This document shows, in pieces, positions 45,066 through 55,574 of a DNA stretch of 64,000 nucleotides (the first letter of the stretch is position 1; each line of letters begins with the position of its first letter). The notes beneath the pieces were generated by a model. The model was not told the DNA's origin. It saw only the letters and a list, made by a program, of their open reading frames with translations, and did not search any database. This stretch comes from Planctomycetota bacterium (lineage in GTDB: Bacteria; Planctomycetota; UBA1135), in assembly GCA_021776925.1 (NCBI GenBank), contig JAJFFB010000016.1:62001-126000 (forward strand), written 5' to 3'. Both the position numbers and the translations under genes were made by a program.

Positions 45066-46223
45066 ATGGCGAGATTCCCCGTTTTCCCCTCCTTGGCGCT
45101 GCTCGGCGCCCTCAGCGTGCTGATGGCCGCCGTGTACTGGCCCGAGGCCGAAGCCGCCGAAGATCCGGGTGCCGGCATGGGCGGCGGTTTCCATCGTTTC
45201 CCGGCCACCTACGCGCGGGTCGCGCGTGGCGACGCGGTCGAGACCGTGGAACTGGTCGGCGACGTGGTGTCTTCGCGGCGCAGCACGCTGACCTTTGAGC
45301 GCACCGGCACCCTGGCGGCGGTGCACGCGCGCATGGGCGACCGCGTCACCGCCGGCCAGCTGCTGGCGGAACTCGAGGATTCGGTGCTGCAGGAAGAGCT
45401 GGCGGCGGCCCAGGCGGGGCTGCGCATCGTTGTCGAAGAAGCGGCGCTGGCCGAGCGCGACGCTGGCCGCGCCGAAGACGTCGGCGCCGACGCGGTGGCC
45501 GAGTCCGAGCGCGACCGGCTGCGGTCGCTGGCCACCACCGCCGCCGCCAAGGTCGCGCAGCAAGAAGCCGAGGTACGGCGCCTGCAGGCGCTGTTGCGGC
45601 GCGGACGTCTGAGCGCCCCCTTCGCTGGGGTCATCGCTCGGCGCCTGCTGGACGAGGGCGCGCAGGCCGGCGCCGGTATTCCGGTTTTCGACCTGCTCGA
45701 TCCGGCGCGACGGGAAGTGCGCCTCGAGGTGCCGCCGCCGCTGGTGGCGTCCTTGCAGACCGGATCCGCGGTGGTTCTCACGCTCGACGAACGCCCAGAT
45801 TTCGAACTCCCCTGCGTGTTGCACGCGCTGGTGCCGGCGGCCGATCCCGGCAGCCGCAGCTTCACCGCGGTGCTGCGGCTCGAACAGGAGGATGACCAGG
45901 GCGTGCTGCTGCCCGGTCTGTTCGTGCGCGCGCGGCTGACCCTGGGGCGCGCTGCGCAGCAGTTGCTGGTTCCGGTCGACGCGGTCATGGAGGGCGCCCA
46001 GGGCGCGGTGGTGGTGGTCGCCGATGCGCCCGTCGAAGGCAAACCGCAAGGAACCCCCGATAGTGCGCGTTTCGTGCCGGTGCGCATTCTGGTGCGCGGC
46101 GCCGAACTGGTTGCGGTGGTTCCTTTCCAAGAGGGCTCGCTGCAGGCCGGTGCACGCGTGCTGGTGACCGGGGTGCAGAACGTGTATCCGGGCGCCTTGC
46201 TGAGCCTGAACGAGGAATTCTAG
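45066..46223 (+). CDS. RND efflux periplasmic adaptor (HlyD/AcrA family)
   Basis: Lipoyl-like GTLAAVHARMGDRVTAGQLLAELE, SAPFAGVIARRLLDEGAQAGAG. Confidence 0.9.
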   Translation: MARFPVFPSLALLGALSVLMAAVYWPEAEAAEDPGAGMGGGFHRFPATYARVARGDAVETVELVGDVVSSRRSTLTFERTGTLAAVHARMGDRVTAGQLLAELEDSVLQEELAAAQAGLRIVVEEAALAERDAGRAEDVGADAVAESERDRLRSLATTAAAKVAQQEAEVRRLQALLRRGRLSAPFAGVIARRLLDEGAQAGAGIPVFDLLDPARREVRLEVPPPLVASLQTGSAVVLTLDERPDFELPCVLHALVPAADPGSRSFTAVLRLEQEDDQGVLLPGLFVRARLTLGRAAQQLLVPVDAVMEGAQGAVVVVADAPVEGKPQGTPDSARFVPVRILVRGAELVAVVPFQEGSLQAGARVLVTGVQNVYPGALLSLNEEF

Positions 46224-46227
46224 GGCC

Positions 46228-49200
46228 ATGAACCCGGTCCGTTTCAGCGTTCAGCGCCCCTACACCATCGCCGTAGCGGTGCTGCTGGCGCTGCTGTTCA
46301 GCGTGCTCGCCTACCGCGACATCCCGGTGCAGCTGAAACCGACGGTCGACTCGCCGACGATCAGTGTGACCACGGTCTACCGCGGCGCTGGACCGATGGA
46401 GGTCGAGGAGCAGATCACGCGCGAGGTCGAGGACCTGCTGCAGAGCGTCGACGGACTGCGCAAGCTGACCAGCACCTCCAGCGAGGGGGTCAGCCAGGTG
46501 GCACTGGAGTTCGAATGGGGGGTCAACAAGGACCGCGCCAACATCGACGTCATCAACAAGCTGTCGCAGATGCCGCCGTTGCCGCCTGAAGCGGAAGAGC
46601 CGGTGGTGTCGCTGACCAGCATGATGGACATGGAGATCGCGATGTGGCTGGTGGTCGAGTCGCATTACGACGCCAACCGCCTGCGCCAGCTGGTCGAGGA
46701 AGAGATCGGACCGCAGCTGAAACGCGTCGAAGGCGTTGCCGACCTGATGATCGTCGGCGGCAGCGAACGCGAGATCCGCGTGCTCATCGATCCAGACCGG
46801 CTGGCGGCGCGCGGGGTGACCTTCGCCCAGCTCACCGGTGCGCTGCAGCGTGGCCACGTCGACCTGCGCGGCGGCACCGTCGAAACGCCGTCGATGCAGT
46901 ACACGGTGCGCACCGAGGGGCGCACCCCGCTACTGGCCGAAATCGAGAAGATCGTGGTGCGCCGCGACGCCGAGGGCACGGTGCGCATCGGCGACGTCGC
47001 GCGGGTGCGCGACGGTTTCCAGGAAGGTGGCACCATCGTGCACACCGCCGGGTCGCCGACCGTGGCGATCGGCGTGCTGCGCGAGAGCGGCGCCAACGTG
47101 GTCGAGATGATCGAAGGCGCCGACCGCGTCATCGAGACGCTCAATCAGCGCTATCGCGAGCGCAGTCTCGACGTGTTCCTCAAGCCGGTGCACCGCGACA
47201 CCGAGTACTTGAACCAGGCGATGGCCTTCGTGCAGGACAATCTGCTGCTCGGCGCCGGCCTGGCGGTGGTGGTGCTGCTGCTGTTCCTGCGCAGCGTGCG
47301 CAGCGTGCTGGTGGTCGGTATCGCCATTCCGATCTCGCTGGTGAGCGTGTTCCTGGTCATGCAGGCACTCGGCCGCACCCTCAACGTGGTCAGCATGGCC
47401 GGTCTGGCCTTCGCTGCCGGCATGGTGGTGGACAACGCCATCGTGGTGCTGGAAAACATCTTCCGCCACCTCGAGCGCGGCCGCGATGGCGAAGAGGCCA
47501 CAGTGCGTGGCGGCCAAGAGGTTTGGGGGGGGGTGCTGGCGGCGACCCTGACCACGGTCGCGGTGTTCCTGCCGGTGGTGGCGATCGAAGAAGAAGCCGG
47601 GCAGCTGTTCGCCGACCTCGCGATCGCGATCTCGGCCGCGGTGGCGCTGTCTCTGGTGGTGGCGCTGACCGTGGTTCCAACCCTGGCGGCGCTGTTCTTC
47701 CGCCGCGGCAGCGGGGCGCATAAGCAGGCCCGCGAGGACCACCGCCCAGGTCCGGTCACGCGGCTCTACGGCCACCTCGTTGCGCGCCTGGCCGGCAGCG
47801 GCGGCGGCAACGTGATGTGGAAACTGGCGCTGCTGATGCTGGTGGTGGCCGGCACGCTGTCGACCTTGCGGCTGGTGCCGCCGGCCGGATATCTGCCCAA
47901 CGGCAACCGCAACCTGACCCTATATCTCGGCCAGCCGGTGCCCGGGATGCGCAACGAGGCGATGGTCAAGGCAATGCAGCCGCTGGAGCAGTGGCTGCTG
48001 ACCCAGCCCGAGATCGATCGCTACTTCCTGGTTCTGGCCGGCGCCTTCAACGGCGGCGGCGTGGTGCTGAAGGACGAATACGCCGACGGTCCCGGTCTGC
48101 AGGCCTTCCAGACCAAATTCCTGCCGGTGACCTTTTCGGTTCCCGGCTTCCGCTACCTGATTCCGATCCAGGCGAGCCTGTTCCGCGACTCGGGCAAGCA
48201 ATTCACGGTCGAGATCACTGGCCCGAACCTGGAGCAGCTGGCGACGACCGCCGCGGAGCTGCAGCAGCAGCTCGGCGAGTGGACGGGGGTGCAGCCCAAC
48301 GGGGTTTCCTCGGACTACGTCGAAGGCCTGCCCGAGCTGCGCGTGCGCGTCGACCCTCATCGTGCCGCCGAGGCGTCGATGTCGGTGCAGCAGGTCGGTT
48401 CGGTGGTCGAGACCGCGGTCGCTGGCCGCCGCGTGGGCTCGTGGTCGGATGGCAGCCGCGATTACGACCTGGTCGCGGTGGTGCCGCCCGAGCGCGTGCG
48501 CAGCGCCGAGGAATTGGCGGCAATGCCGGTGATCACCGATCGTGGCGACCGCACCTCGCTGGGAGCGCTGGCCACGGTGGAGCGCACCTCCGGACCGCAG
48601 AGCGTGCACCGGCTGGAACGCGAACGGGCGATCACCCTGACCGTCAACCTGCTACCCGAAGCGATCCTGCAGGAGGTCATGGAGGACGTCCGTCAGAACG
48701 TGGTGCTGCCCGCCCTGGCCGCGCTGCCTTCCGATTTCCGCATCGACCTCGGGGGTTCGGCCGACAAGTTCAGCCGCACCCTGCGCCAGCTCATCGGCAG
48801 CTTTTGGCTGGCGATCCTGATCACCTACCTGCTGTTGGTGGCCTTGTTCCGTTCGTGGCTGGCACCGCTGGTGATCCTGATCACCGTGCCATTGGCGCTG
48901 TCTGGCGGGCTGCTCGGCATTTCCATTGCCGCGCAATGGAGCCCCAACGCGAGTTACGACCTGCTGTCCATGCTCGGCTTCGTCATTCTCGCCGGGGTGG
49001 TGGTCAACAACGCGATCCTGATCATTCATCAAGCCAACAACTTGCGCCACGAAGGCCTGGAACGGCGCCAGGCGCTGATCGGCTCAGCGGTCTCGCGACT
49101 GCGTCCGATCGTGATGTCGGTAACCACCTCGGTGTGCGGCATGCTGCCGCTGGCCTTGGGCACCGGCTCCGGTTCCGAGTTGTATCAAGGTCTCGCCGCG

Positions 49201-49356
49201 GTGGTCGTCGGCGGCCTGCTGGTCAGCACCTTGTTCACCCTGTTCCTGGTACCGGCGATGCTCAGCCTCGGCTGGGACCTGCATGATCTGTTCCGCCGCC
49301 GCGCCCATATGGCGGTGGCCGGCGGTTTTGGAACGGGCGACCGCGCACCGGTCTGA
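46228..49356 (+). CDS. RND efflux permease (AcrB/HAE1 family)
   Basis: 1042 aa; RPYTIAVAVLLALLFSVLAYRDIPVQLKPTVD; GLAFAAGMVVDNAIVVLENIFRH. Confidence 0.95.
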   Translation: MNPVRFSVQRPYTIAVAVLLALLFSVLAYRDIPVQLKPTVDSPTISVTTVYRGAGPMEVEEQITREVEDLLQSVDGLRKLTSTSSEGVSQVALEFEWGVNKDRANIDVINKLSQMPPLPPEAEEPVVSLTSMMDMEIAMWLVVESHYDANRLRQLVEEEIGPQLKRVEGVADLMIVGGSEREIRVLIDPDRLAARGVTFAQLTGALQRGHVDLRGGTVETPSMQYTVRTEGRTPLLAEIEKIVVRRDAEGTVRIGDVARVRDGFQEGGTIVHTAGSPTVAIGVLRESGANVVEMIEGADRVIETLNQRYRERSLDVFLKPVHRDTEYLNQAMAFVQDNLLLGAGLAVVVLLLFLRSVRSVLVVGIAIPISLVSVFLVMQALGRTLNVVSMAGLAFAAGMVVDNAIVVLENIFRHLERGRDGEEATVRGGQEVWGGVLAATLTTVAVFLPVVAIEEEAGQLFADLAIAISAAVALSLVVALTVVPTLAALFFRRGSGAHKQAREDHRPGPVTRLYGHLVARLAGSGGGNVMWKLALLMLVVAGTLSTLRLVPPAGYLPNGNRNLTLYLGQPVPGMRNEAMVKAMQPLEQWLLTQPEIDRYFLVLAGAFNGGGVVLKDEYADGPGLQAFQTKFLPVTFSVPGFRYLIPIQASLFRDSGKQFTVEITGPNLEQLATTAAELQQQLGEWTGVQPNGVSSDYVEGLPELRVRVDPHRAAEASMSVQQVGSVVETAVAGRRVGSWSDGSRDYDLVAVVPPERVRSAEELAAMPVITDRGDRTSLGALATVERTSGPQSVHRLERERAITLTVNLLPEAILQEVMEDVRQNVVLPALAALPSDFRIDLGGSADKFSRTLRQLIGSFWLAILITYLLLVALFRSWLAPLVILITVPLALSGGLLGISIAAQWSPNASYDLLSMLGFVILAGVVVNNAILIIHQANNLRHEGLERRQALIGSAVSRLRPIVMSVTTSVCGMLPLALGTGSGSELYQGLAAVVVGGLLVSTLFTLFLVPAMLSLGWDLHDLFRRRAHMAVAGGFGTGDRAPV

Positions 49357-49360
49357 GCCG

Positions 49361-49397
49361 AAAAAAAAAGAGACCGCCCTTCCCACAGGAAGGACGG
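49361..49397 (-). terminator. intrinsic terminator for the minus-strand repeat-protein gene
   Basis: Stem CCGCCCTTCC-CACA-GGAAGGACGG; minus-strand product followed by TCTCTTTTTTTTT. Confidence 0.8.
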
Positions 49398-49424
49398 CCC
49401 CCTTGATTCTCCTCAGAGTCCGGT

Positions 49425-51743
49425 CTACTCGCTTTCGACCTCGAGGGTGTTGCGCGGACGAACCGCTCGGAAGTCCGCCGCGGTGGCGGAGGACTGCTGG
49501 CGCACCTCTTCGATGGCACGCAGCATGTCCGCTTCGGAGTGGGACGCGATGGCCGCGTTTTCTGCACGCTTGGAGCGCTGCAGCATCACGGTCGGATCAT
49601 CGTCCATTTCGCGGCGCAGGCGGTCGATCTCCTTGCGCAGGGCTTCCATTTCCGCGCGCATTTCTTCGAGCAGCTGACGCGCCTCATCGCGCTCAAAGCG
49701 CGCCCGTGGAGCGGGTGCCCCCTCGGGGAGCGGGCCGAATTGGATCCTGGCCTTGGGCGCCTTCGGGGCCTTCGGCGCTTTGAGTGGCTTGGGTGCCTTG
49801 GGCGGCTTAGGTGCCTTGGGCGGCTTAGGAGCCTTGGACGGCAACATCCCAGCCGAGTCGATTTCAAAGGCAATGTTGCCGTGGGGTACCGGAACCGCCC
49901 AGGTGTTTTCCTCGGCGCCTTCTAGGTGCATTTGATAGCGCATTCGAGTGCCATCCTTGATCACGTTGTCGTCGCTGTAGAAGAGGCCTTCATGGCTGCC
50001 TGCGCCGGAGTCAAAGAAGGTACCCGCGTGGGTATCCGGGGAACCGAACAACATCACGTTGCCACCGGAGTCGCTCCACACCATGGCGTCGTGGTCGTGG
50101 CCATCATCGTCATCGTCCTCGTCGTTGCAATCGCAGTCGCAATTGCAGCTCGCAGAAGGCGCGAAGAAGATGTTCTGGCCGCCACCACCGATGCTGTAGC
50201 CGCCGCCCTCACCGCCGAGGATGCGGTAACGGAGACCTTGGCCGCCGCCGTGGCCTTTGCCGCCGCCGCTGATGCCGAAGCGGCTGCGTTCGCCCTGGTG
50301 GAATTGCAGGACGCGCGGGGCCATGTGACGTTCTCCTTGCTGGCCGCGTTGTAGACGCACACGCGGAACGGCGAGGGAGGCGTGGCCTTCGCCGTCTTCG
50401 GTCATGATCATGAACTCGACTTCGACCTCGCCGTCGTCACCGTGTTGGCCGTGTTGGTCGTGTTCAGCATGTTGGCCGTGTTCACCGTGGAGACCGTCGC
50501 GGCCAGGCAAACGGATGCCGTGCGCTTCCAGATCGAAATCCTTGGCGTTGATGCGCTTGCCGTCCATGATGATGACCGGCTTCTGATCACCACGCTGCTC
50601 GATCACGATCATTCGCTTTTGCACCTTGGGTGCATCTTGCGCGCCGTCTTCGCTGAGCCAGCGCAGCACCTGCGGGCCGTCCTGGTGGTTGCCGCCGAGG
50701 CCACCGATGTGAACCTCGAAGTCGCCGAGGTCTTCGCCCTCGATGCCGCGCAGGCGGCCGCGCAGGCGGTCGACGACGGCTTCCTGGCGATCGAAGTCGA
50801 CTCCTTCGGCCCTCAGCCGCATGGTGAGGGCGAGGTCCTCTTTTCCGCCGAGGCCCTTGAGCGCGTGCAGTTCGCCCAGATCGCCTAACTGCTGGAGCCG
50901 GACGCGCAGGCCTTGCAGGTCACCGAGTTCCGCGAGGTGCTCGTGCAGGCCACTCAGTTCACCAAGTTCGGCGAGGTGCTCGTGTAGCTCTTCGCGGCCG
51001 ATCCACTCGCCCAACCTCTGCGGTTGGCCTTGTTGGTCCATCAGCAGACCGTGGATCTCGACGTTGGCACCCTCGAGGCCAGCCAAGGCCTCGTGGATGT
51101 GTGTGGCCAGGTCTGAGGGAGTGGGCTCTTGGCCACCGCGCGTGGTGTCGATTTCCTCGAAGAAGCGTTGCAGCTCTTCTTGGTGTTCCGGACTGGGCAT
51201 GGCTTCCCAGGTGACGGAGACTTCGCCGTCCCCACCTTCCTTGGCCCTTTCCTGGTAGCCCTGCATCGCCCTTTCATAGGCCTTGCGGGCATCGGCGTGG
51301 GTTCGCTCGAGCTTGATGCGCCGATCGACCTTGGCTTGGGCCGCGGCTTTGGCCTTGGCGTAGTCCTTTTCCTTGGCGCGGTCCTTGGCCTTGGCGCGGT
51401 CCTTTTCCTTGGCGCGGTCCTTGGCCTTGGCGGAACGGGCTTGGCGGGCGTCGCGCGGTGCGCGGGCCTCTTTTTTGCTGGCCTTCTGGTAGGCCTCAAG
51501 CAGGCGGGTGGCTTCCGAGGCGAGCTTGGCGGCTTGCGTGTTGTCGCCCGCGGCGGCGGCCTTTTGCGCCTTTGCAGCGAGTTGCGTCGCTTGTTTCAGC
51601 AGCGAGGATGCCTCGCTTTGTTCGCCATTTTGAACGACGATGCGTTGCTGTTTCTTGACCGGACCACGATCTTGGGCGGTGGCCGGTGACCCTGTCAGCG
51701 CCACGGTGGCGCCGATGAGGCCGGTGAGCAGGAGCTTGTTCAT
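49425..51743 (-). CDS. exported repeat-rich, His/Asp/Cys-rich protein of unknown function
   Basis: Signal peptide MNKLLLTGLIGATVALTGSPATA; repeat blocks DRAKEK/DRAKAK, HEHLAELGEL, HGQHAEHDQHGQHG, CNCDCDCNDEDDDDDGHDHD, KAPKPP. ATG 51743 or TTG 51764. Confidence 0.85.
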   Translation of the reverse strand: MNKLLLTGLIGATVALTGSPATAQDRGPVKKQQRIVVQNGEQSEASSLLKQATQLAAKAQKAAAAGDNTQAAKLASEATRLLEAYQKASKKEARAPRDARQARSAKAKDRAKEKDRAKAKDRAKEKDYAKAKAAAQAKVDRRIKLERTHADARKAYERAMQGYQERAKEGGDGEVSVTWEAMPSPEHQEELQRFFEEIDTTRGGQEPTPSDLATHIHEALAGLEGANVEIHGLLMDQQGQPQRLGEWIGREELHEHLAELGELSGLHEHLAELGDLQGLRVRLQQLGDLGELHALKGLGGKEDLALTMRLRAEGVDFDRQEAVVDRLRGRLRGIEGEDLGDFEVHIGGLGGNHQDGPQVLRWLSEDGAQDAPKVQKRMIVIEQRGDQKPVIIMDGKRINAKDFDLEAHGIRLPGRDGLHGEHGQHAEHDQHGQHGDDGEVEVEFMIMTEDGEGHASLAVPRVRLQRGQQGERHMAPRVLQFHQGERSRFGISGGGKGHGGGQGLRYRILGGEGGGYSIGGGGQNIFFAPSASCNCDCDCNDEDDDDDGHDHDAMVWSDSGGNVMLFGSPDTHAGTFFDSGAGSHEGLFYSDDNVIKDGTRMRYQMHLEGAEENTWAVPVPHGNIAFEIDSAGMLPSKAPKPPKAPKPPKAPKPLKAPKAPKAPKARIQFGPLPEGAPAPRARFERDEARQLLEEMRAEMEALRKEIDRLRREMDDDPTVMLQRSKRAENAAIASHSEADMLRAIEEVRQQSSATAADFRAVRPRNTLEVESE

Positions 51744-51760
51744 GTCCTTCGGTATGTTTT

Positions 51761-53215
51761 TCAACGATGTGGTTGGAACGGCATGTCAGCAGCGGAGACG
51801 GGTTCGGCCTCGGGGCTGAGCAATGAGAGGAGATCGGCCAGCAGGCCGCGCATCACGCGCAGGCGTTGCAGACGCTGGCTGATGCTGGTGAGGATCTCCT
51901 GGTAGTGGGGTTGGTCCTGCAGCGGTCCCAGATCGAGCAGCAGTTCGGCCAGCTGGAATTCCAGCGCGGTGAGTTGCAGGTCGAAGGGTTGCAGCAGCAA
52001 GTCCACCGGGTCGACCGGTGAAGGGGGTTGCAGCAGCCATTCCCCAGGCAGGTCTTGTGCCTCGAGGGCGGCGGCGTCGAGCGGCGCAGAAGGCACCAGC
52101 GCCGGCGCGGCGAAGGGGGCTGCGGCGAGGAAGACCAGCGCCAGCAGGCTGCGGCCGGCGCCACGGCGCACGACGTGCTCGGGCTGGCCGTCGATCAGGC
52201 GCTGCATGCGGTTGCGCAGGAGCGAACGGCGGCGTGCCATGGCCGGCACCGGCAAAGAGCGGCCGCCAGGTGTGAGCCACACCGCGACCTCGGTCAGCAC
52301 GCGGGCCATGGCCAGCGGATCGCCGGTCTGGCGTGCGCCCCAGGCGTCGCAGCGCTCCTCGATGGCTTCCATCAGCTGGCGCCGGGCGAGGCGCAGCAGC
52401 GGCTGGAAGAAAAGCAGGCGCTCGAGTGCCTGCAGGCCGAGGAGCCAGGCCGGGTCGCGGCGCATGTGGTGGGCAACCTCGTGGGCGAGCATCGAGTCTT
52501 GCTGGATGGCGCTCAATTCGGGCCAGCGCACCGGCAGGCAGATCTCGGGGCGAAGGATGCCGAAGGCCGCGGGCGAGGCAATTTCGGGGGTGTGGCTGAG
52601 GCGCGGTACGCGGCGCAGCCGTGCGGCACGGGCAAGGCCGACCAGAGAGGTGCGCAGGCGCAGGTCGCGAACCGGCGTGCGATGGCGCAGCGCCCAGTGA
52701 AAACCGGCCAGGCGGCTCAGGGCGAGTAGCGACAAGAGGCCCGCGATCGCGGCCCACAGCAGCGGCAGCCGTTGCACCCAGGCGGCGACACCGGCGCCGG
52801 TGGAACCTTCGGATGCAGCCAGCCCTGCGCTGGCGAGTTCGGATTCAAGCGCGTTGCCGGAGGCCCCCGTTGCGGTCTCGGACCAGGGCCGGGGTGCGCC
52901 GGTGGCCGCCGCAATGGCGGTGGCGTCGGGTACCAGGTAGATCACCCGGGGTTCCTGTCCGGAACCGGCGACTGGACCGGCGGAAACCTCAGGCGCAGTC
53001 GGATTCAGGGCTCCGGTGGCCAGGCTCCAACCCGGTAGCGGCTCGAACCCGGGAAGCTGTTGAGCCAAGGGGCCGATCAGCGAGGCGGCGAGGGCGGTCT
53101 TCCACAGGCTTTCGCGTACCCGCGGAGAGGCCTGCGAACGCCAGCGCAGAAAAAGGAAGGTGCCGCCGAGCCACAGGGTACTTTGCAGCAGAAAGGCGAG
53201 GAGGAGGGCGGTCAT
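51761..53215 (-). CDS. M56 family (BlaR1/MecR1-type) membrane metallopeptidase
   Basis: HEVAHH (HExxH), several TM segments; no beta-lactam sensor domain apparent. Confidence 0.9.
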   Translation of the reverse strand: MTALLLAFLLQSTLWLGGTFLFLRWRSQASPRVRESLWKTALAASLIGPLAQQLPGFEPLPGWSLATGALNPTAPEVSAGPVAGSGQEPRVIYLVPDATAIAAATGAPRPWSETATGASGNALESELASAGLAASEGSTGAGVAAWVQRLPLLWAAIAGLLSLLALSRLAGFHWALRHRTPVRDLRLRTSLVGLARAARLRRVPRLSHTPEIASPAAFGILRPEICLPVRWPELSAIQQDSMLAHEVAHHMRRDPAWLLGLQALERLLFFQPLLRLARRQLMEAIEERCDAWGARQTGDPLAMARVLTEVAVWLTPGGRSLPVPAMARRRSLLRNRMQRLIDGQPEHVVRRGAGRSLLALVFLAAAPFAAPALVPSAPLDAAALEAQDLPGEWLLQPPSPVDPVDLLLQPFDLQLTALEFQLAELLLDLGPLQDQPHYQEILTSISQRLQRLRVMRGLLADLLSLLSPEAEPVSAADMPFQPHR

Positions 53216-53607
53216 CAGGCGCTTCTCCGGGCTTCGGCTTCCTTTTCTTCGAGCAGGGCGCGCAGCTGTTCGAGTTCGCGCGGGTCGATCTCGCCGGCGC
53301 TGAGCAGGTGGTTGACCAGGGCGGCGCTGCTGCCGCGGAACAGGCGGTCGACCAGATCGCCGACCATGCCTTGGCGCACGTCACCCTCTTCCAAGGTTGG
53401 GCGATAGATGAACTGGCGGCCGCGGGCGCGGTGGCGCACCACCCCCTTGTCCTCCATTTTGCGCAGCATGGTGGCGATGGTGGTGGGGGCCAGGCCGCGC
53501 TCTTCGAAGAGGGCGGCGTGCACCTGGCTGGCGGATGCCTCGCCGGAGCGCCATAGGATGCGCATGATGGCGAGTTGCAAATCTCCGAGTTGGTGTCGGG
53601 TCGTCAT
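53215..53607 (-). CDS. BlaI/MecI/CopY family winged-helix repressor
   Basis: LGDLQLAIMRILWRSGEASASQVHAAL..APTTIATMLRKMEDKGVV. Confidence 0.95.
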   Translation of the reverse strand: MTTRHQLGDLQLAIMRILWRSGEASASQVHAALFEERGLAPTTIATMLRKMEDKGVVRHRARGRQFIYRPTLEEGDVRQGMVGDLVDRLFRGSSAALVNHLLSAGEIDPRELEQLRALLEEKEAEARRSA

Positions 53608-53632
53608 GGAGGTCTACCGGGGTGCGTTCTAG

Positions 53633-53660
53633 ACTACTCGGGTAGTTTTACCCTGGTAGT
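53633..53660. promoter_or_regulatory. candidate BlaI-type operator (clustered dyads)
   Basis: ACTAC-TCGG-GTAGT and TACC-CT-GGTA, with a further GTAGT at 53656, just upstream of the blaI-like gene. Confidence 0.6.
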
Positions 53661-53813: not shown

Positions 53814-55574
53814 ATGACCCTTCCCTTCGAGCCTCAGCAGGGCCCGGTCTCACTGCAGGCCCTGCGTCACAGCGTCAGCCACATCATGGCCGACGCCGTC
53901 CTCCGTCGATTTCCGGGTGCCAAGGTCGCGATCGGCCCCCCGATCGAGCACGGTTTCTACTACGACTTCGAGCTGCCGCGGCCGCTGACCGATGAGGATC
54001 TGCCGGCCATCGAAGAGGAGATGCGCGCGATCCTGGCCGAGGCCGGGGAATTCCAGCGTTCGACCATGAGCCGTGCCGACGCCGAAGCGCGCCTGCGCGA
54101 GGCCGGCCAGGAGTACAAGGTCGAACTGCTCGGCGACATTCCTGTGGGAGAAGAAATCTCCTTTTACGACCACGGCACCTGGAGCGATCTGTGCGAAGGA
54201 CCGCACGTCGAGAGCGCGCAGCAGATCCGCGGCGATGCCTTCAAGCTGACCTCGGTGGCCGGCGCCTACTGGCGCGGCGACGCCGACAAGGCGATGCTGC
54301 AGCGCATCTATGGCACCGCGTGGTGGTCGAAGAAAGATGTGCGCAAGTACCTCGACTACCTCGAGGAAATCAAGAAACGCGACCACCGCCGTCTCGGCCG
54401 TGAGCTGGATCTGTTTTCGTTGAATCCCGACTTCGGCGCCGGCCTGGTGTTCTGGCACCCCAAGCTCGGCCATGTACGCCGTCAGCTGGAACAGTGGTGG
54501 TGGGACCTGCACTACGCCGCCGATTACTGGCCGGTGTACACCCCGCACGTCGCCGGGGAAAAGGTCTTCGAACGTTCCGGCCACCTCGAGAACTACGCCG
54601 ACATGATCTGGGCGCCGATGGCGGTCGACGAGCGCCCGCACCGGGTCAAGCCGATGAACTGCCCGGGGCACGTCACCATCTTCAATTCGCGCCGTCACAG
54701 CTACCGCGATCTGCCGCTGCGCTTTGCCGAACTCGGCACCGTTTACCGCTACGAGCCGAGCGGAACCTTGCACGGCATGCTGCGCGTGCGCGGCTTCACC
54801 CAGGACGACGCGCACATCTTCTGCACCCCCGGCCAGCTCGCCGACGAGATTGTCGACGTGTTGAAAATGGTGCACACCATCCTCTCCACCTTCGGTTACC
54901 AGTACACCGCCTACCTTGCTACGCGGCCGCAGAAATCGCTCGGCACCGACGAGATCTGGGAGCACGCGATCGACGCGCTCAAGGCCGCGGCCGAGCGCCA
55001 GCAGCTGCCGTTGGAGGACGATCCCGGCGGCGGGGTCTTCTACGGGCCCAAGATCGACTACAAGATCAAGGACGCGCTCGGCCGCGAATGGCAGGGGCCG
55101 ACGGTGCAGGTCGATTTCAACCTGCCCGACCGCTTCGACATCCAGTTCAACGACGCCGACAATACGCTCAAGCGCCCGGTGATGGTACACCGCGCGATCT
55201 TCGGGTCGATGGAGCGTTTCGTCGGCGGTCTGATCGAACACTTCGGCGCCTGGTTCCCGTTGTGGATCAATCCCAATCCGATCGCCGTGCTGCCGATTAC
55301 CGACGAGCAGATCGAAGCCGCCACCTCTCTGCAGGCGCGCCTGGTCGAAGCCGGCTATCGCACCGCGATGTGGCCCGATGGTCCGTTGCGCAAACGCGTG
55401 CGCGAGGCCAATCTCGAGAAGATTCCCTACGTCGCCGTGCTCGGCGGACGCGAGGTCGAAGAGGGTACGGTCAACCTGCGCATCCACGGGCGCAAGGACC
55501 AGCTCAGCATGAGCATGGATGAGTTCGTGGCCTACCTCGACGACAAGCGGCGCAGCAAGAGCTTGGAGTTCTGA
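53814..55574 (+). CDS. thrS: threonyl-tRNA synthetase lacking N-terminal TGS domain
   Basis: MNCPGH, DDAHIF, VHRAIFGSMERF; editing motifs HSVSH and LCEGPHV. Confidence 0.96.
   Translation: MTLPFEPQQGPVSLQALRHSVSHIMADAVLRRFPGAKVAIGPPIEHGFYYDFELPRPLTDEDLPAIEEEMRAILAEAGEFQRSTMSRADAEARLREAGQEYKVELLGDIPVGEEISFYDHGTWSDLCEGPHVESAQQIRGDAFKLTSVAGAYWRGDADKAMLQRIYGTAWWSKKDVRKYLDYLEEIKKRDHRRLGRELDLFSLNPDFGAGLVFWHPKLGHVRRQLEQWWWDLHYAADYWPVYTPHVAGEKVFERSGHLENYADMIWAPMAVDERPHRVKPMNCPGHVTIFNSRRHSYRDLPLRFAELGTVYRYEPSGTLHGMLRVRGFTQDDAHIFCTPGQLADEIVDVLKMVHTILSTFGYQYTAYLATRPQKSLGTDEIWEHAIDALKAAAERQQLPLEDDPGGGVFYGPKIDYKIKDALGREWQGPTVQVDFNLPDRFDIQFNDADNTLKRPVMVHRAIFGSMERFVGGLIEHFGAWFPLWINPNPIAVLPITDEQIEAATSLQARLVEAGYRTAMWPDGPLRKRVREANLEKIPYVAVLGGREVEEGTVNLRIHGRKDQLSMSMDEFVAYLDDKRRSKSLEF

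Follow-up and report, generated by a model that had tools for sequence, protein, structure and literature searches.

BlaI-M56 operons lacking the penicillin sensor and their exported coil partner in an order of uncultured Planctomycetota

A related BlaI-M56 signalling operon in Staphylococcus senses penicillin. Throughout an order of uncultured Planctomycetota this operon has lost the penicillin sensor, and an exported third protein almost always accompanies the BlaI repressor and the M56 protease. The short conserved helix of this partner may act as a detachable sensor. The explanation which we favour, at a probability of about 0.4, is BlaR1/BlaI signalling with a split sensor, in which the exported coil protein would dock on a helical hairpin of M56. 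The operon was analysed in a stretch of 64,000 nucleotides (hereafter the window), which is a part of a 4.59-Mb assembly of 203 contigs.

Layout of the operon, the repressor and the protease

Three minus-strand genes coding for BlaI, M56 and the exported protein form one operon (53607-49425) with a strong terminator at its end. The features are as follows (window positions):

53647..53660, no strand assigned: putative degenerate second operator copy, minus-strand ACTACCAGGGTAAA, abutting the first copy, 2 mismatches
53633..53646, no strand assigned: exact palindrome ACTACTCGGGTAGT, predicted BlaI-type operator that lies 25 nt upstream of blaI
53215..53607, minus strand: blaI, BlaI/MecI-family repressor gene, 130 aa (Pfam Penicillinase_R, 1.1e-31)
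51761..53215, minus strand: M56 (BlaR1-type) membrane metalloprotease gene, 484 aa (Peptidase_M56, 3.4e-16; best PDB matches S. aureus BlaR1)
52469..52483, minus strand: HEVAH zinc-protease motif, residues 245-249, with the downstream Glu286
51818..52009, minus strand: C-terminal tail of M56, residues 403-466, predicted by AlphaFold2 as a periplasmic two-helix hairpin where BlaR1 has its sensor domain
49425..51743, minus strand: gene of the exported, mostly disordered partner (772 aa, belonging to no Pfam family), from the ATG at 51743 to the last nucleotide of the stop codon at 49425
51672..51743, minus strand: signal peptide of the partner, MNKLLLTGLIGATVALTGSPATAQ (sequence; hydrophobicity test)
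51329..51432, minus strand: Lys/Ala/Glu/Asp (KDRAKEKDRAKA) repeats (tandem-repeat array)
50437..50489, minus strand: His-rich repeat HGEHGQHAEHDQHGQHG (tandem-repeat array; clustering test)
50096..50158, minus strand: Cys/Asp cluster CNCDCDCNDEDDDDDGHDHD (sequence; clustering test)
49752..49842, minus strand: KAPKPP repeats (tandem-repeat array)
49608..49676, minus strand: 23-residue heptad coil motif QLLEEMRAEMEALRKEIDRLRRE, the sole element common to all partners
49367..49404, minus strand: intrinsic terminator, 17-bp stem followed by a T run

The original prediction of a compact BlaI/M56/exported-protein operon with an intrinsic terminator is confirmed by the three genes and the 17-bp stem. 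Its span of 49361-53660 is correct, since it runs from the terminator to the operator; the operator at 53633-53646 is an addition to its inventory.

The operon is flanked by genes for an RND efflux adaptor and permease (45066-49356, convergent) and by the divergent thrS (53814-55574), a homologue of which is found near the operon also in the genomes G002, G011, G013 and G017. The threonyl-tRNA synthetase of the window (586 aa) seems to be devoid of the N-terminal TGS region, as judged by its length and sequence only. The top scores of the RND permease belong to multidrug permeases and not to CusA/CzcA. The pump was considered as a member of the regulon and rejected: it has no exact operator and, among the loci checked, adjoins the operon in the window and in G007 and at no other locus.

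The window BlaI matches Penicillinase_R over the full length of the profile (1-115 of 115), which comprises the winged-helix DNA-binding and dimerisation region, as well as the solved structures of MecI and BlaI, with MecI aligned over 5-122. At the position of the S. aureus BlaI cleavage site, Asn101-Phe102 (PMC9834060), the alignment with MecI places His-Leu. The CopY/CopR copper repressors, which carry C-terminal CxC metal-binding motifs (PMC7253601), share the repressor superfamily with the window BlaI. However, its CopY_TcrY NCBIfam score of 72.9 bits is under the cut-off of 121.95, there is no Cys in its 130 residues and therefore no CopY-type CxC site, a copper exporter is absent, and the window operator differs from the CopY/CopR operator RNYKACANNYGTMRNY (PMC7253601). 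BlaI proteins of the relatives are similar in this respect (41 of 50 are Cys-free, with a maximum of 2 Cys in any). CopY-type metal sensing was rejected because of the absence of Cys from the window BlaI.

The AlphaFold2 model of M56 contains four membrane helices (2-25, 31-52, 140-176 and 353-369) and a protease domain predicted at high confidence, and S. aureus BlaR1 is the top PDB match. The residues H245, E246, H249 and E286 are invariant in 21 aligned sequences. A search against Pfam reveals no transpeptidase or beta-lactam-binding domain in this protein, and its blaR1_generic score is 24.3 bits vs the cut-off of 400; the earlier description of an M56 peptidase with no apparent beta-lactam sensor is thus accurate, the HExxH motif being intact. 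The ~114 residues past the final membrane helix are predicted to form a helical hairpin (helices 403-428 and 436-466, pLDDT mostly 85-89). Its heptad pattern is conserved across 73 short M56 tails, and the pattern of the first helix resembles that of the partner coil.

The exported partner and its coil

The 772-aa window protein has a signal-like N-terminus, no further membrane helix and no Pfam family. Both ends of its model are helical and residues 455-679 have pLDDT below 50; the mean pLDDT of 52 was too low for a fold search, which was dropped. The Lys/Ala/Glu/Asp, His-rich, Cys/Asp and KAPKPP elements originally described are all present, and the clustering of potential ligands is above chance: there are 5 Cys pairs within 5 residues vs an expectation of 0.09 (p about 0.002), and one stretch of 20 residues holds 6 His (p about 0.005). 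The known domain HxsA4 (NCBIfam) was rejected, the match being weak, below the cut-off and limited to the His-rich stretch. The heptad motif scores 36.4 vs 12.0 for the best shuffle and is predicted as a helix with pLDDT of about 91.

A plain protein search with the window protein found only two homologues among 61 relatives. On this result the third gene would look like a local peculiarity, which the gene neighbourhoods contradict. Ordinary homology search misses the family because only 23 residues are conserved. Position and codon bias, but not the coil, served to pick the third gene as the next one on the same strand after each short-tail M56, and 65 scorable genes were left after removal of contig-truncated, misread and duplicate cases; as the species are related, counts over these 65 genes are not counts of independent events. 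All 65 products carry a signal-like N-terminus, called from hydrophobicity only, and none has another membrane helix; the median length is 495 aa (range 216-933). The 23-residue heptad motif (consensus ELLEEMRAEVRELRAELRELRAE) is found in all of them, and the remainder of the sequence is hypervariable and not in Pfam (one marginal LRR match for 13 members searched). Leave-one-out motif scores exceed all 100 shuffles in 65/65 proteins; in 64/65 they also exceed the 99th percentile of 1185 control ORFs. The coil is not C-terminal throughout: in several lineages it is internal, 150-280 residues from the protein end. The third gene overlaps M56 by 4 nt at 32 of the 65 loci, and at 56 its start is no more than 30 nt away from the M56 stop. 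Linkage of the third gene in relatives, on which the original prediction had been staked beforehand, was found at every scorable locus, in the form of a coil-bearing exported gene. Two loci that had been set aside (L181 and L179) contain the motif in another frame, with scores of 25.2 and 25.0. The G007 coil protein (L036:3085-4473), likewise set aside, precedes blaI and has a LysM domain, and RND pump genes are nearby as in the window.

Large-tail M56 loci of the same order share the BlaI pairing and the protease domain. In contrast to the short-tail loci, these ten (L192, L218-L221 and L225-L229) carry a large periplasmic tail of 256-650 aa in cis and have blaI downstream of M56 in most cases; the coil gene accompanies none of them (0/10), and no neighbouring ORF scores above 5.5 for the motif. 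The three large tails compared with Pfam (L192, L221 and L229) all match ExbD/TolR, the match being weak for one and exceeding the curated cut-off for the other two. In G001 (L043), also set aside and truly devoid of the third gene, the operator and the regular first tail helix are absent together with it. Given the protease core, the coil covaries with the tail (partial Mantel 0.149, p about 0.012; one exploratory test, and a weak correlation); the same statistic is not significant for the N-terminal membrane helices (0.049) and for BlaI (0.066). We infer docking of the coil on the M56 hairpin, for which this covariation of sequences would be a weak support.

The ligand-rich stretches are less widespread than the coil. 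No mature Cys is found in 27 of the 65 partners; 31 have at least 3 mature Cys, which are clustered beyond chance in 20 of these 31, and significant His clusters occur in 8 of the 65. Acidic residues flank the Cys clusters that recur in the close relatives. The variable region may thus have been put to metal or ion binding in particular lineages. General metal sequestration was rejected as the shared function since 27/65 partners are Cys-free and Cys clusters occur only in some lineages.

The operator and its likely targets

The palindrome ACTACNNNNGTAGT precedes blaI exactly in 49 of the 69 short-tail loci with BlaI and with no more than 1 mismatch in 8 more; at 36 of the 69, at least two sites with 0 or 1 mismatch are present. 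Twelve loci show no site before blaI. They include G017 (L028), where the blaI start was called too early and an exact site is present at C254:1645, and G007 (L036), which has its site before the coil gene and not before blaI.

Three exact copies are found in the 4.6-Mb window genome: in this operon and on contigs C140 and C20. The C140 site lies 21 nt before the gene of a 328-aa exported protein belonging to no Pfam family. The C20 site (G000) is 96 nt upstream of the gene of a 1002-aa TPR protein, which is followed by an ExbB-type channel protein (both genes at L155:3612-7355); as a BlaI target the TPR gene is only a lead. A one-mismatch site on C33 is located just before the gene of a 985-aa-class exported protein, and exact sites also precede the genes of its relatives in G002 and G011, of which the G002 protein carries CarboxypepD_reg repeats. 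Recurrence of the site before related genes in three genomes makes this protein the best supported candidate for a second target. The clear sites of the window genome outside this operon sit before exported or envelope genes. Control counts of the pattern demonstrate that rarity of the bare palindrome cannot be presumed for every genome, and therefore the position of a site outweighs the number of sites; operator-like matches in G001 C25, G011 C87 and G000 C181 were dropped, all being inside genes. Among the operator sites examined, none is followed by a metal-export, beta-lactamase or penicillin-binding protein gene.

Known systems and the role of the third protein

The operon resembles BlaR1-BlaI and MecR1-MecI of S. 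aureus and B. licheniformis in its BlaI/MecI repressor, its M56 protein with HExxH and four membrane helices, and its palindromic operator with the TAC/GTA core. Unlike those systems, it has no penicillin-binding sensor domain, the tail consists of two helices, a third, exported coil protein is encoded, and beta-lactamase is not among the likely targets; the operator cores are mostly TACCNNNGTA, vs TACA/TGTA there. The BlaI-BlaR pair of M. tuberculosis (Rv1846c and a BlaR1 homologue) likewise has an M56 protease domain with no equivalent sensor domain, and to our knowledge no exported coil partner adjoins it. Targets of M. tuberculosis BlaI include blaC and Rv1303, the latter being co-transcribed with ATP-synthase genes (PMC12565901), and the signal input of the sensor-less M56 has been described as unclear (PMC9834060).

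BlaI-M56 operons of Gemmatimonadota have the same order of BlaI, M56 and an exported protein, but the partner is of another type (HEAT-repeat protein or lipoprotein) and the coil motif was not seen in it by eye. HEAT-like repeats occur in the M56 tail and similar ones in the next exported protein at L065, L066, L070, L072, L079 and L080, a possible parallel to the coil pairing. At L055, L060, L063 and L068 the gene next downstream of the BlaI-M56 pair is small (~130 aa), conserved and lipoprotein-like. A Rosetta-stone fusion of M56 with the downstream protein in L063 was rejected despite the single open frame, which is probably a read-through because the downstream part retains its own start and lipoprotein signal.

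According to the split-sensor explanation, BlaI would repress its own operon through ACTACNNNNGTAGT, along with a few exported-protein genes. M56 would cross the inner membrane, the catalytic site facing the cytoplasm and the two-helix hairpin lying outside, in place of the penicillin-binding domain. The third protein would be the envelope-facing part: with its heptad coil docked on the hairpin, it would respond to the envelope state by means of its variable middle (disordered; rich in Cys, His or acidic residues in some lineages; with LysM once). A change in docking would switch the protease, BlaI would be cut, and the operon and the envelope genes would be turned on. Of this scheme, the gene order, the export signal, the conserved coil, the hairpin prediction, the intact active-site motif and the operator come from computation, and docking, the signal, the direction of regulation and BlaI cleavage are inferred. 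Linkage at 65/65 loci, translational coupling, the conserved hairpin, mutual exclusion with large tails, the joint loss in G001, the coil-tail covariation and the envelope link (the LysM coil protein of G007 and the sites before exported genes) speak for this explanation. Against it, a place in the operon would be expected of an output as much as of a sensor, a structural or effector protein could equally well have a hypervariable middle, the coil is internal in several lineages, and the cleavage position of BlaI is His-Leu.

Close behind ranks a reading in which the third protein is not a sensor but the output of the system. It would be a scaffold or filler of the envelope that oligomerises by its coil and is produced when M56 alone perceives a membrane or wall signal through the hairpin and the outer loop. 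The third gene is indeed the last one in a BlaI-controlled operon, the remaining likely targets are also large exported proteins, the middle region is long, disordered and variable, and the motif is plausible as a self-association coil. The 4-nt overlap at 32/65 loci, the missing coil gene beside large-tail M56, and the weak covariation together with the G001 co-loss fit a partner of M56 better. A metal-responsive sequestration, with the exported protein binding Cu/Zn/Ni and BlaI responding to the metal, is unlikely. It would agree with the acid-flanked Cys clusters, present beyond chance both in the window protein and in a number of relatives (20 out of 31 proteins having at least 3 Cys), with the His-rich stretch and with the distant relation of BlaI to CopY; BlaI proteins with 0-2 Cys offer no CopY CxC sites, however, 27/65 partners have no mature Cys, a metal exporter stands behind none of the examined operator sites, and the adjoining RND pump, whose best scores are with multidrug permeases, lacks an exact operator. 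Of the earlier idea of a metal- or envelope-stress sequestration or surface system, the envelope theme persists among the likely targets, and metal sequestration as a general function does not. Least probable of all appears a response to beta-lactams or cell-wall damage, in which beta-lactams would be read indirectly, e.g. through peptidoglycan fragments binding to BlaI as reported in B. licheniformis (PMC3305447). Membership in the BlaI/MecI family, the BlaI-type operator, LysM in the G007 partner and the ExbD/TolR-like tails of sister M56 proteins are in line with it; neither beta-lactamase nor penicillin-binding protein genes are found at the examined operator sites, the sensor domain is absent, and the sequence holds nothing specific to beta-lactams.

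No literature joining BlaI, M56 and Planctomycetes was found, and the partners constitute a family of exported proteins for which we found no published description. If the split-sensor explanation is right, which we hold to be somewhat less than an even chance, BlaR1-type M56 proteases of the whole order would be governed by a separate sensor subunit, exported and fast-evolving, that attaches via a short coiled coil, a modular arrangement of one protease with many sensors. A sensor-less M56 encoded together with an exported partner that has one contact-like motif turns the question of signal input into a defined binding and deletion test.
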